From a virus, in IMG/VR virus record IMGVR_UViG_3300024518_001502, positions 1 to 22,092 of that record: a stretch of 22,092 nucleotides of DNA; one strand, given 5' to 3'. The number at the start of each line of letters is the position of its first letter. The stretch's first letter is position 1. Below the pieces are notes generated by a model that was not told the origin of the DNA, did no database searches, and saw only the letters and a program-made list of their open reading frames with translations. The translations under genes were made by a program, and so were the position numbers. Below are positions 15,463 to 21,613 of this stretch, one piece after another.

Positions 15463-15492
15463 AGTATAACACAGGAGAGAGTCAGCTTGCAA
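15463..15492 (-). promoter_or_regulatory. sigma70-type promoter P1
   Basis: On the minus strand TTGCAA (15492-15487) and TATACT (15468-15463) are separated by 18 nt. TATACT matches the -10 consensus at five of six bases and TTGCAA the -35 at four of six. Transcription would start near 15456, giving a leader of about 38 nt to ATG 15418. The core GTTATACTGA and an upstream GCAAGCT recur at the second promoter (21026-21055). Confidence 0.65.
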
Positions 15493-17939: not shown

Positions 17940-19730
17940 TCAGCCTGTTCCATAGTCCATTTCCCTTGTCATTTTCTTTAGAGCTCCCCAGTTCTTCCCA
18001 TAGGAGCCTTCACTACGCATGGGTGCGTCAAATAATGGTTGATCCATAGCAGCTTGAAGCTGCTGCATCTCCCCACGCCAAGTATCCAAAGGCGTTGAAG
18101 CATTGAGTTCATCATGTATGGTGGTCATAAAGATAGTTTCTGGGTCTTTGTAATCTTCCCACCAATCATTAAGGACTTGTTTAGTCTGGTCTCCAGCGCT
18201 TCCTTGTATGAGGTAGTTCAACAGCTTATACTCAAAGCTACGCATACGGCCATTGACCACTTTAGAAGGCTCTGTGTAGTACTGACGGCCCCCCCATGTG
18301 GTAATAAACCCTCCAGACTGCCCCCTAGCCCTTGTCGACGCTGCGAGTTGTGCTGCCGCTGGCATGGCCTTAAAGTATGCCTCGCGTAGTTCGAACGCCA
18401 CTCCCTTAGGTCTACCAAGCTGCTGAGCCAGCCCCGGCACGCCAGCCCCGTATATAATGCTGAACCCTGTTATTTTTACGTCCTTACGCTCGTACAGAAA
18501 TTCAGTTATCTGCAATATAAGCTGTCTAGCCATTTCATGGGGATCAAGAAAGGGGTCATTGATGTACGCGGCCAGTAAAGCTCCATCCTCAAAGTGAGCT
18601 AGTATTCTAATTTCTTGAGAACTGAAATCCCGTTGGATCCATATATGGTGCTCCTCTGGTAATAGGTAGCCTCGCATATTGGGCAGGTCAACAAGTCCTT
18701 CTGGTACAGTAATTCCAAACGGGTTAGGGGGATTCTGGAAATTTGGTCTAGAAGAGGACAGTCTGCCTGTTCGTGCCCCAGCGTGGACTCCTTCGTCGTT
18801 CGCAACTTGGTTCCATTCAGTGTGGACACGGCCATCTTCCTCGCTAAAATTGAGCCACGGGAGCATAAATGTTCCCGTACAAGTTTTCATTGTACTACGA
18901 TATGCGAGGAGTTGCACTAGGTCTAAATCTTTACAGACTTTAATAAGATTATCCTTAGCTGTAGACCTGCGGCCTTTCGGGGTTAGTATCCAATTGTCTA
19001 CCAAACCTGCCTTGTCTAATCGATCCGCCAACTGTATGCCTGAACCAATGTTAAACTCTTCGCATCCGAGTCGCTCATATATACGGTCGTCGCAGGTTGA
19101 CATCGATTCAAGACAAGTGTTAGTGTCAATTTCCAGCCGTTCTCGGTCCAAGCGAATTCCCTTGACGCTACTTGCTCTAAGTTTGGGAGCCAAGCGTCGC
19201 TCTCTGTCGTAGGCCTCAAGGCTAATTCCACCAATGTATTTATCAAACAAGAGTCTGGTACGATACACGTCACCGATAGCGTAGGGTGCGACAAGCTGAA
19301 CCGGCGCACGGCAGATATAAGCGCCTGCTGTTTTCGCGGTGGCTTCTGGTACGTTAGCCAGTATCCAGTTATGGAGGTCGTTTTCCTCTTGTGCTGGTAA
19401 ATCCAGTAAGCGGTCTGCAGACGGCTTAAGCGACAAGCTATGGCTGTACGGATCTTGTTGAAAAAGGATGAACATTGTATCATGTACGCGCTCCCATTTG
19501 GGTTCTTTTCCGCCGAGCCAATGCAGTCCTACGCTTAGGTCAAATGGGGCGTTGTGGAATAGTAAGTCATCAGAGCTTAATGCCCAGAGCCAGATATCCC
19601 GCATATAAGTCCAATTAGTGACGTACTTAGGGTCTGACCATTCGGCCCATATTGCTAGACCTACTGGTTTAGGAGGATGAACTAGGGGGTTCCCTACTAT
19701 GCCCTCCGTTTCGAAATCAAGTGTTATCAT
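17940..19730 (-). CDS. polA: DNA polymerase I (family A) with 3'-5' exonuclease
   Basis: The 596-aa enzyme has a DEDDy exonuclease domain: LDFETE (Asp5, Glu7), FHNAPFD (Asn60, Asp64) and YAIGDVYRT (Tyr150, Asp154). The polymerase domain carries TGRLSSSRPNFQNPP (about 321-335), motif A RDFSSQEIRILAHFEDG (Asp368), motif B RKDVKITGFSIIYGAG (Arg415, Lys419, Phe423, Tyr427) and motif C IHDELNAS (His539, Asp540, Glu541). Phe423 takes the place of E. coli Phe762. There is no 5'-3' exonuclease domain and no obvious insertion. AAGGA lies 5 nt before ATG 19730. It is the replicative polymerase, working with the SSB upstream and the helicase downstream. Confidence 0.95.
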   Translation of the reverse strand: MITLDFETEGIVGNPLVHPPKPVGLAIWAEWSDPKYVTNWTYMRDIWLWALSSDDLLFHNAPFDLSVGLHWLGGKEPKWERVHDTMFILFQQDPYSHSLSLKPSADRLLDLPAQEENDLHNWILANVPEATAKTAGAYICRAPVQLVAPYAIGDVYRTRLLFDKYIGGISLEAYDRERRLAPKLRASSVKGIRLDRERLEIDTNTCLESMSTCDDRIYERLGCEEFNIGSGIQLADRLDKAGLVDNWILTPKGRRSTAKDNLIKVCKDLDLVQLLAYRSTMKTCTGTFMLPWLNFSEEDGRVHTEWNQVANDEGVHAGARTGRLSSSRPNFQNPPNPFGITVPEGLVDLPNMRGYLLPEEHHIWIQRDFSSQEIRILAHFEDGALLAAYINDPFLDPHEMARQLILQITEFLYERKDVKITGFSIIYGAGVPGLAQQLGRPKGVAFELREAYFKAMPAAAQLAASTRARGQSGGFITTWGGRQYYTEPSKVVNGRMRSFEYKLLNYLIQGSAGDQTKQVLNDWWEDYKDPETIFMTTIHDELNASTPLDTWRGEMQQLQAAMDQPLFDAPMRSEGSYGKNWGALKKMTREMDYGTG

Positions 19731-19756: not shown

Positions 19757-19823
19757 CCTCCGGGTTGAATTGGGGACAACCCGGAGGCACGAGCTATTGC
19801 GGGCCACAGGGAGCTACCCTGTG
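19757..19823 (-). other. structured leader with two perfect hairpins before polA
   Basis: The 130-nt gap 19731-19860 holds no convincing ORF. On the minus strand it can form CACAGGG/CCCTGTG (19823-19817 with 19811-19805, 5-nt loop) and then CCTCCGGGTTG/CAACCCGGAGG (19787-19777 with 19767-19757, 9-nt loop). The second stem is 11 bp and perfect and ends 26 nt before the polymerase ATG. No T tract follows either stem, so they are poor terminators; a smaller CTCC/GGAG stem sits at 19842-19853. They may act as a processing, stabilising or translation-control structure between the SSB and polymerase genes. Confidence 0.6.
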
Positions 19824-20610: not shown

Positions 20611-20991
20611 TTAAGTTCTCGCCTTTGCATAGGTGATGTAGCTATAGTCCATTAAAGACACCCCCGGTATTAGAATTCCGTCATCCCTACGGAGCAATAC
20701 GGCTGAGTCAGTCAGTCGCTTGTGCAACAAATCAAACGCATCATTCTTACGCACATACTCGTGAATCTCTGACCAATCACCAGCAATAGCTCGTGTTCTT
20801 ATAGAACGGTTAATGACCGCCACTTTACCCCCGGCGGAAGACAAACCTGCTGTCTCCATTTCGGTAATGAGCTGGGTTTTAAGTTCGTTTTCGTCTGATT
20901 TAAGTGATGCCGCTGTCTTATCAGCAGCTAGTCTTTTGGTACGGGCATCGTCTAGCCGATCGGCTAATGCCCCAAGTTCTGCTAAGTCCAT
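20611..20991 (-). CDS. coiled-coil phage early protein, 126 aa
   Basis: ATG 20991 has GAGGG (21003-20999) 7 nt upstream. Residues 1-50 are a charged heptad-like helix (LADRLDDARTKRLAADKTAA; SLKSDENELKTQLITEMETA). The C-terminal 70 residues are alpha/beta (GGKVAVINRSIRTRAIAGDW, FDLLHKRLTDSAVLLRRDDG, IPGVSLMDYSYITYAKART). The FDLL..RL....V..~..~G..IPGV pattern recurs in phage proteins coded beside SSB genes. Function unknown; a replication or recombination accessory is likely. It is the first gene after promoter P2, and its ribosome site is part of a long inverted repeat. Confidence 0.72.
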   Translation of the reverse strand: MDLAELGALADRLDDARTKRLAADKTAASLKSDENELKTQLITEMETAGLSSAGGKVAVINRSIRTRAIAGDWSEIHEYVRKNDAFDLLHKRLTDSAVLLRRDDGILIPGVSLMDYSYITYAKART

Positions 20992-20998
20992 TGTGTGT

Positions 20999-21066
20999 CC
21001 CTCGTAATGGTGGCTTGCGTAGCTCAGTATAACATACGGGGGCTGAGCTTGCCACCATTACGAGGG
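20999..21066 (-). repeat. 16-bp perfect inverted repeat with a nested 7-bp repeat around promoter P2
   Basis: CCCTCGTAATGGTGGC (20999-21014) is the exact reverse complement of GCCACCATTACGAGGG (21051-21066). Inside, AGCTCAG (21021-21027) pairs with CTGAGCT (21043-21049) around a 15-nt loop. On the minus strand the distal arm contains the GAGGG ribosome site of the 20611-20991 gene. Confidence 0.9.
21026..21055 (-). promoter_or_regulatory. sigma70-type promoter P2 inside the inverted repeat
   Basis: On the minus strand TATACT (21031-21026) matches the -10 consensus at five of six bases; GTGGCA (21055-21050) is a -35 with four of six at 18 nt (TGGCAA at 17 nt is the alternative). The start would fall near 21019, between the repeat arms, giving a leader of about 28 nt. 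It shares GTTATACTGA and an upstream GCAAGCT with P1. Confidence 0.6.
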
Positions 21067-21071
21067 TAGTG

Positions 21072-21350
21072 TTATCTACTGATCCACTCCTCCATGGCTC
21101 CGGGGAACCCCCAACACCCAGAAGGGGCATAGTTGTAGAACCATCTAATGTAGTTGGGGAGCAATAGCATGTTCTGATCGTCAGCCCTACCTACAGCTTC
21201 TTTCAAGTCGTTGTTAATAACAGCAGTAAGAAAATCACCGGGAGGTATTTCGTTATCTATGTATCTAACTATTGACCCTCGCATTCTATCTGGGATTCCC
21301 AATTCTGCCATCATCATAACAGATTTTTCAGAAAGTTGGTATTTACTCAT
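21072..21350 (-). CDS. conserved small phage protein, 92 aa
   Basis: GGAGGAG with a 6-nt spacer precedes ATG 21350. The product is helical with the recurrent phage pattern GIPDRMRGSIVRYIDNEIPP, GDFLTAVINNDLKEAVGRAD and NYIRWFYNYAPSGCWGFPGA. The order DRMRG..~RY....PG.FL.AV..NDL..A..RAD..N.......~~~~~N..P..CWG defines a family common in phage early regions, of unknown function. It overlaps the upstream small membrane ORF by 8 nt and ends just before the inverted repeat of P2. Confidence 0.8.
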   Translation of the reverse strand: MSKYQLSEKSVMMMAELGIPDRMRGSIVRYIDNEIPPGDFLTAVINNDLKEAVGRADDQNMLLLPNYIRWFYNYAPSGCWGFPGAMEEWISR

Positions 21351-21459
21351 TATTTTCTCCTCCTGCTAGGGTTAAAACGCCAGACCCAATTACGAAAATA
21401 GCAGGTCCGAATGCTGCAAGGATAACAGCCACAGCTAAGATGTCAAGGGTCAATGACAT
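21343..21459 (-). CDS. small single-pass membrane protein, 38 aa
   Basis: ATG 21459 follows GGAG with a 7-nt spacer and the frame ends at TAA 21343, overlapping the next gene's start by 8 nt. Residues 2-32 are almost entirely hydrophobic (LDILAVAVILAAFGPAIFVI then GSGVLTLAG), followed by the acidic tail GENNE. The good ribosome site, tight overlap on both sides and clear transmembrane segment support translation. Function unknown; such peptides in early regions often act on the host envelope. Confidence 0.65.
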   Translation of the reverse strand: MSLTLDILAVAVILAAFGPAIFVIGSGVLTLAGGENNE

Positions 21460-21613
21460 TGTTCATCTCCTGTATGAGTTCTTCGCGTACCATTTCCAAG
21501 TTATGCTTAGCCCCAGAAATAAACATAAGGTTGAACAGAGCCTTAATTGGACCTTTCTGCTCAGCCCATGCTTCTTCAAACCCCTTATCAAGTTCTTCAC
21601 TTTTGTTATCCAT
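21443..21613 (-). CDS. small helical protein, 56 aa
   Basis: AGGAG (21625-21621) lies 7 nt before ATG 21613; an adjacent in-frame ATG at 21616 is only 4 nt away. The product is charged and helical (MDNKSEELDKGFEEAWAEQK, PIKALFNLMFISGAKHNLEM, VREELIQEMNNVIDP) with no Cys and no membrane segment. It overlaps the following membrane ORF by 17 nt. The codon pattern, ribosome site and exact fit between neighbours support it. No family recognised. Confidence 0.65.
   Translation of the reverse strand: MDNKSEELDKGFEEAWAEQKGPIKALFNLMFISGAKHNLEMVREELIQEMNNVIDP

Follow-up and report, generated by a model that had tools for sequence, protein, structure and literature searches.

A promoter enclosed by a perfect inverted repeat ahead of phage replication genes, and a conserved start-codon hairpin in its leader

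In the phage DNA analysed here, a promoter designated P2 lies between the arms of a perfect 16-nt inverted repeat directly ahead of a replication gene cluster. The arrangement is real and unusual at the level of sequence, and appears so far to be unique to one phage. A plausible mechanism, to which we give about an even chance, is an RNA fold governed by the point at which the transcript begins and that would muffle translation of the first gene of the cluster, coding for 126 amino acids, on read-through RNA. The element does not appear to be conserved: the repeat that would hide the Shine-Dalgarno sequence (SD) is best regarded as a feature of one lineage and not as a conserved switch, because relatives sharing the promoter and the leader motif GCCACCA lack the distal arm and folding predicts burial of the SD by read-through in none of six relatives. 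The better supported regulatory element at the site seems to be a different one, a conserved leader hairpin that pairs the start codon, which the initial annotation of this DNA had missed.

The window, meaning the whole stretch of DNA that was analysed, is an IMG/VR virus record of 22,092 bases from a phage and is probably a fragment; its minus-strand genes include DNA polymerase, exonuclease, helicase and thymidylate synthase, and its DNA found no match among phage records. The features around the repeat are as follows, in the order in which the minus strand is read.

21072-21350, minus strand: gene of 92 amino acids, upstream of the repeat and presumed source of read-through RNA
21051-21066, minus strand: distal arm, CCCTCGTAATGGTGGC, beginning 5 nt past the 92-aa stop codon and overlapping the -35 region at its inner end
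21026-21054, minus strand: promoter P2, with TGGCAA (21049-21054), a 17-nt spacer, TATACT (21026-21031) and a TG extension (21033-21034); predicted start near 21019
21043-21049, minus strand: inner arm AGCTCAG, absent from relatives
21021-21027, minus strand: inner arm CTGAGCT, overlapping the end of the -10 and absent from relatives
20999-21014, minus strand: proximal arm, GCCACCATTACGAGGG, whose first 7 nt are conserved leader sequence and whose last 5 nt are the SD
20999-21003, minus strand: SD (GAGGG) serving the 126-aa gene, seven bases ahead of its ATG
20611-20991, minus strand: 126-aa gene, first behind P2
19861-20610, minus strand: 249-aa gene, second behind P2, of unknown function and conserved gene order
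17940-19730, minus strand: family A DNA polymerase gene, third behind P2

P2 precedes a conserved replication gene cluster that includes the family A DNA polymerase. The upstream genes are tightly spaced and share its strand, and between the 92-aa gene and P2 no terminator-like site was found. A search for relatives of the 92-aa gene found none. The 126-aa protein has weak similarity to phage proteins without known function (PHROG 13900), some relatives of which match the Pam3 gp33-like DUF7307; its predicted structure has a mean pLDDT of 91.5, and a structure search with this model gave no PDB match. For the 249-aa protein the model was poor and the structure search gave no fold match, and a scan of genome contigs with its family was also without a match. 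Two further features were noted on the minus strand. An unlisted small hydrophobic ORF of about 38 aa (window 21348-21462) has a stop codon overlapping the start of the 92-aa gene, and a perfect 11-bp hairpin, CCTCCGGGTTG/CAACCCGGAGG (window 19757-19787), includes GGAGG and lies 26 nt before the start codon of the DNA polymerase.

On the minus strand the elements follow one another as ...TAA-CACTA-CCCTCGTAATGGTGGC-AAGCTCAGCCCCCGTATGTTATACTGAGCTACGCAA-GCCACCATTACGAGGG-ACACACA-ATG. The initial annotation had described 16-nt arms flanking P2, and these are present exactly as described, complementary at 16/16 positions around a 36-nt loop, with all pairs Watson-Crick and no G-U; the inner AGCTCAG/CTGAGCT and the GAGGG that it named are there too. 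The 7-nt inner pair prolongs the fold, giving 16 bp, an asymmetric internal loop and 7 bp, or about 23 bp stacked in read-through RNA. The repeat is the strongest inverted repeat of the window. When arms of 11 or more nt within 100 nt were counted in 200 order-1 Markov versions of the window, the mean numbers per randomised version were 0.36 for 11 nt, 0.08 for 12 nt, 0.02 for 13 nt and 0.01 for 14 nt, and no longer arms occurred. No further copy of the arm sequence exists in the window with up to three mismatches allowed, and the full repeat pattern was found in no other IMG/VR contig; in a scan of IMG/VR with 14 bases of the arm, which returned at least 119 stretches, only the window's own copies had a partner arm among the loci examined. 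Rfam gave no match at the gathering score, and its sub-threshold microRNA hits to the palindrome itself are meaningless. An intrinsic terminator was set aside for lack of a U-run after the stem, and tandem operator copies for lack of further copies.

A consensus scan of the window for promoters gave 20 hits against 19 expected; at such a chance number the scan alone is not evidence, and the evidence for P2 is its conservation in relatives. In five related phages (L127, L128, L135, L136 and L137) the 126-aa and 249-aa genes both have homologues, which stand in unchanged order and are followed by a DNA polymerase, of about 67% identity where checked (L127, L128). All five have an extended -10 promoter at the matching place before the homologous gene, each reading TG-N-TATACT or TG-N-TATTAT, about 10 nt, GCCACCA, a ribosome site and the start codon. 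Since five related phages carry it at the matching place, P2 is judged from comparative sequence to be a real promoter, and the claim of a promoter between the arms is borne out. By its sequence it resembles promoters read by host sigma70. The L127 group can also be read as TTGAMA-16-TGTAAW, which makes the exact start uncertain in those phages; it might truncate the first stem of the leader hairpin to which we come later. Another promoter of the P2 form, TTGCAA-18-TATACT with a TG extension, was observed at window 15463-15492 (minus strand; 15471), and L128, L130 and L131 have counterparts at the matching place.

The two RNAs that could cover the 126-aa gene differ sharply in their predicted folding. 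Computed as equilibrium predictions at 37 °C, with the same contrast at 25 °C (temperatures that may not be those of the host), the cost of opening the SD was 8.9-11.4 kcal/mol in read-through RNA of various lengths against 1.0 kcal/mol in P2 RNA starting at 21018-21021, in agreement with the earlier proposal that the SD is locked in the former and open in the latter. With 60 nt of upstream sequence the cost was 11.3, a value reached by none of 300 randomised upstream segments (their mean being 3.1 and their maximum 9.9) and by none of about 300 borrowed ones (maximum 9.7). With a ribosome placed at the stop codon of the 92-aa gene, covering the base of the distal arm, the cost drops to 3.2-5.4, so coupling to the upstream gene is possible.

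Read as an RNA fold, the repeat would act as follows. Read-through RNA from the upstream early genes would contain both arms and form a 16-bp stem, at whose base CCCUC pairs with the GAGGG of the SD; the 126-aa gene would be poorly translated from it, and the genes coupled to it probably likewise. As the SD-pairing base of the stem lies 5 nt past the stop codon of the 92-aa gene, a terminating ribosome could partly reopen the stem. RNA starting at P2 would be free of the distal arm and expose the SD, which would leave P2 in control of the replication genes, and in this RNA the proximal arm would return to its older role, common to the family, of forming the 5' side of a weak hairpin that covers the start codon. 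Most probably the distal arm is a gain of the window's lineage, made perhaps when the 92-aa gene took the place of a different upstream gene; a gain in one lineage is simpler than losses in the others.

The relatives bear on this reading in two ways. The annotation had named, as an outcome that would speak against it, relatives in which one arm varies without compensation in the other, and this is partly what was found: all five keep the promoter as well as GCCACCA, the first bases of the proximal arm, which supports the promoter, and the distal arm is absent from all five, which weighs against the pairing. Within 100 nt upstream, the best complement to their leaders was 8 or 9 of 16 positions, as in shuffles, and folding gave burial of the SD specific to the long RNA in none of six relatives; conservation of arm pairing, which had been named as a check, was therefore looked for and not found. 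The sixth relative, L129, is the nearest by the 126-aa protein (52%). Its corresponding gap has a perfect 13-nt repeat, TGGGGTCCGGTGG-N55-CCACCGGACCCCA, beginning 2 nt past the upstream stop codon and forming a stem of 18 pairs when G-U is counted; the L129 promoter (TGGTATAAT) and ribosome site both come after the repeat, which hence covers neither. Homology of this repeat to that of the window was considered and dropped, the shared GCCACC being too short and the position alone being in common. Counting the window, a long repeat stands in the gap in two of seven phages and buries the SD in one.

We count in favour of an RNA fold the arms beyond chance, the conserved P2, the energy contrast, the close-packed upstream genes and the precedent of T4 gene e and I-TevI. 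Against it stand the single instance of the distal arm, the L129 repeat that spares promoter and ribosome site, the 16/16 Watson-Crick pairing, which is equally expected of a recent or a DNA-level palindrome, and a sigma70-like P2 with no evident timing difference.

A rival reading is RNA processing. Between T7 early genes there are RNase III sites, and the stem here, likewise a long one in an intergenic gap beside a promoter, is a candidate site by its structure: RNase III or another activity might cut it in read-through RNA and so part the upstream message from the replication message. About 23 stacked bp is a length compatible with about two helical turns, and in L129 too the long stem lies between the upstream stop codon and the next promoter, where it is unable to hide the SD, a common placement that suits a message boundary. 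Five relatives, however, do without such a stem, and we think this explanation unlikely.

The arms may instead work as DNA. Lying at about -47 to -32 and +6 to +21, they could be inverted protein sites some 52 bp apart from centre to centre, through which P2 would be shut by occlusion or looping, with the RNA fold incidental. Their perfect symmetry without G-U pairs, their position astride the promoter and a 9-bp dyad, ATAATACCA/TGGTATTAT, over the -10 of L135 are what such an operator would lead one to expect. It becomes improbable in view of an arm sequence that occurs nowhere else in the window and is not conserved in relatives having the same promoter. The inner dyad fares no better: the nested AGCTCAG/CTGAGCT had been suggested as an operator, yet it has only its symmetry in its favour and is not conserved either. 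In L135 the 9-bp dyad (L135:2432-2464) joins the upstream stop codon to the -10; at the same place L127 keeps the pairing through a double change, and L136 and L137 do not keep it fully.

The repeat might also be a neutral by-product, left by a template-switch (quasi-palindrome) event that placed a copy of the leader in the gap before the promoter, with no selected function. In the distal arm the leader is repeated exactly in inverted form, the arm is unique to the window record, and the gap from stop codon to promoter is longer in the window than in L127 and L128. Yet the copy ends exactly where the SD becomes fully paired, and the stem would disturb expression of the replication genes unless tolerated; here again our estimate of the probability is low. 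Lastly, perfect inverted repeats flanking a promoter are how invertible promoters are laid out, and recombination at the arms would flip the 36-bp segment. The spacer is short beside known invertible segments, the orientation is constant in all relatives, and no recombinase family was found among the proteins scanned, which were part of those of the window, itself probably a fragment. Inversion is extremely improbable and was dropped on the short spacer and constant orientation.

In addition to the repeat, the leader of P2 RNA contains a hairpin that is shared across the family.

20981-21018, minus strand: leader hairpin of P2 RNA (found by RNAalifold from six sequences; of its 10 pairs, 3 show compensatory changes)

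The leaders of the window, L128, L127, L135, L136 and L137 were aligned with no structure supplied, and RNAalifold returned a consensus hairpin of 10 bp, GCARG...CCAYW / WRUGG-A-CYU-A-GC. In the window, GCAAG (21014-21018) and CCAUU (21006-21010) pair with AAUGG (20988-20992), CUU (20984-20986) and GC (20981-20982); AAUGG contains the start codon, and the SD lies in the loop, so that the proximal arm comprises the 5' strand of this hairpin and the SD. Three pairs covary: in L128, which has a GTG start codon and a matching change in the leader, U-A becomes C-G; A-U becomes U-A in the window; and G-C becomes A-U in the window and L128, matching a synonymous CTA/TTA change. Of the cells, 98.3% are paired, against at most 32% in slid controls; the covariation score and the paired percentage were reached by no shuffle and the number of covarying pairs by 17 of 500, in a sample whose six sequences are only about three lineages. 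The hairpin is weak in the window, for which a slightly different fold is predicted as best.

Hairpin and repeat together would make a leader with two states, where the RNA comes from deciding which half of the initiation site is masked: P2 RNA would mask the start codon and show the SD, read-through RNA would do the reverse, and ribosomes from the upstream gene could reopen the latter, the whole having arisen from the start-codon hairpin of the family when a single inverted copy of 16 nt was added. We put this forward tentatively and with considerable doubt.

The closest precedents are T4 gene e and also soc, 49 and I-TevI, in which long transcripts sequester the ribosome site and internal-promoter transcripts do not; for gene e the effect on translation was measured and close relatives share the predicted structure (PMC3014915, PMC2988022). 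As in gene e and I-TevI, an SD hairpin would form in upstream RNA, with pairing of the SD predicted by folding, and promoter RNA would be without the 5' strand of the hairpin, P2 lying between the arms with a predicted start site. There, however, a T4 late promoter serves a late gene, whereas here a sigma70-like extended -10 promoter, neither promoter nor gene being late, precedes replication genes; and there the effect was measured and the structure is shared, whereas here the fold is known by prediction and is not shared by relatives. We do not file the element with the T4 gene e type, because its promoter is not a late one and relatives do not share the structure. Nor does the likeness to T4 extend to timing, since a sigma70-like P2 implies no built-in early/late timing.

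Other systems resemble it by design. In the Aeromonas phage Aeh1, an RNA hairpin sequesters the ribosome site of mobE, a gene embedded in a longer message (PMC2988022). The likeness is one of design, a ribosome-site hairpin in a longer message, and mobE is a homing endonuclease gene. The MS2 replicase has a phage translational operator with the start codon in a hairpin; the leader hairpin likewise pairs the start codon, but here the SD is in the loop and not the stem, and no binding protein is known. Fold-back inhibition of outside RNA occurs in IS10 and IS50. According to a passage in PMC3196728, the stem-loops of IS200 guard against impinging outside transcription. In these elements, for IS200 as far as that passage goes, incoming RNA hides the ribosome site of the element's own gene, as proposed here, with the difference that they represent transposon self-restraint and not a phage operon. 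Literature searches on phage promoters flanked by inverted repeats, and on the RNase III sites of T7, yielded nothing useful.

If the RNA-fold reading is right, a T4-style trick would be of independent origin here, applied to replication genes and driven by a host-type promoter, and the locus would be a rare case in which an ancestral leader, with its conserved start-codon hairpin, could be compared with a derived switch. The conserved hairpin is itself a testable translational control element in the replication operon of an uncultured phage group.

Several features outside the site were also observed. A minus-strand protein at window 13707-14528 matches Pfam TAGT (TET-associated glycosyltransferase) barely above the cut-off, a hint of hypermodified phage DNA. 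Relatives carry clustered arrays of a box, TATTATGTTAAAT(GG), in roughly 6 to 14 copies and both orientations, which are candidates for a replication origin or an operator array.

G001:294-924 (L153): array of TATTATGTTAAAT boxes
G002:9137-9636 (L155): array of TATTATGTTAAAT boxes
G004:1631-2337 (L160): array of TATTATGTTAAAT boxes
G006:25347-25955 (L165): array of TATTATGTTAAAT boxes

The box is absent from the window, and a link between this iteron-like sequence and P2 in the L127 group was rejected, the partial resemblance not being close enough. The array in G002 lies near a 695-aa gene resembling a putative P4-type primase-helicase. The L129 phage carries several long perfect repeats; in one of its regions (L129:2774-2893) a perfect 15-nt inverted repeat, nearly 23 nt with one mismatch (GACTATTRCGAGGCGCATACTAG), flanks most of the gap between two divergent genes. 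In L159, a perfect 30-bp palindrome (L159:2159-2188; G003 42159-42188) stands right after a stop codon, between two converging ORFs.
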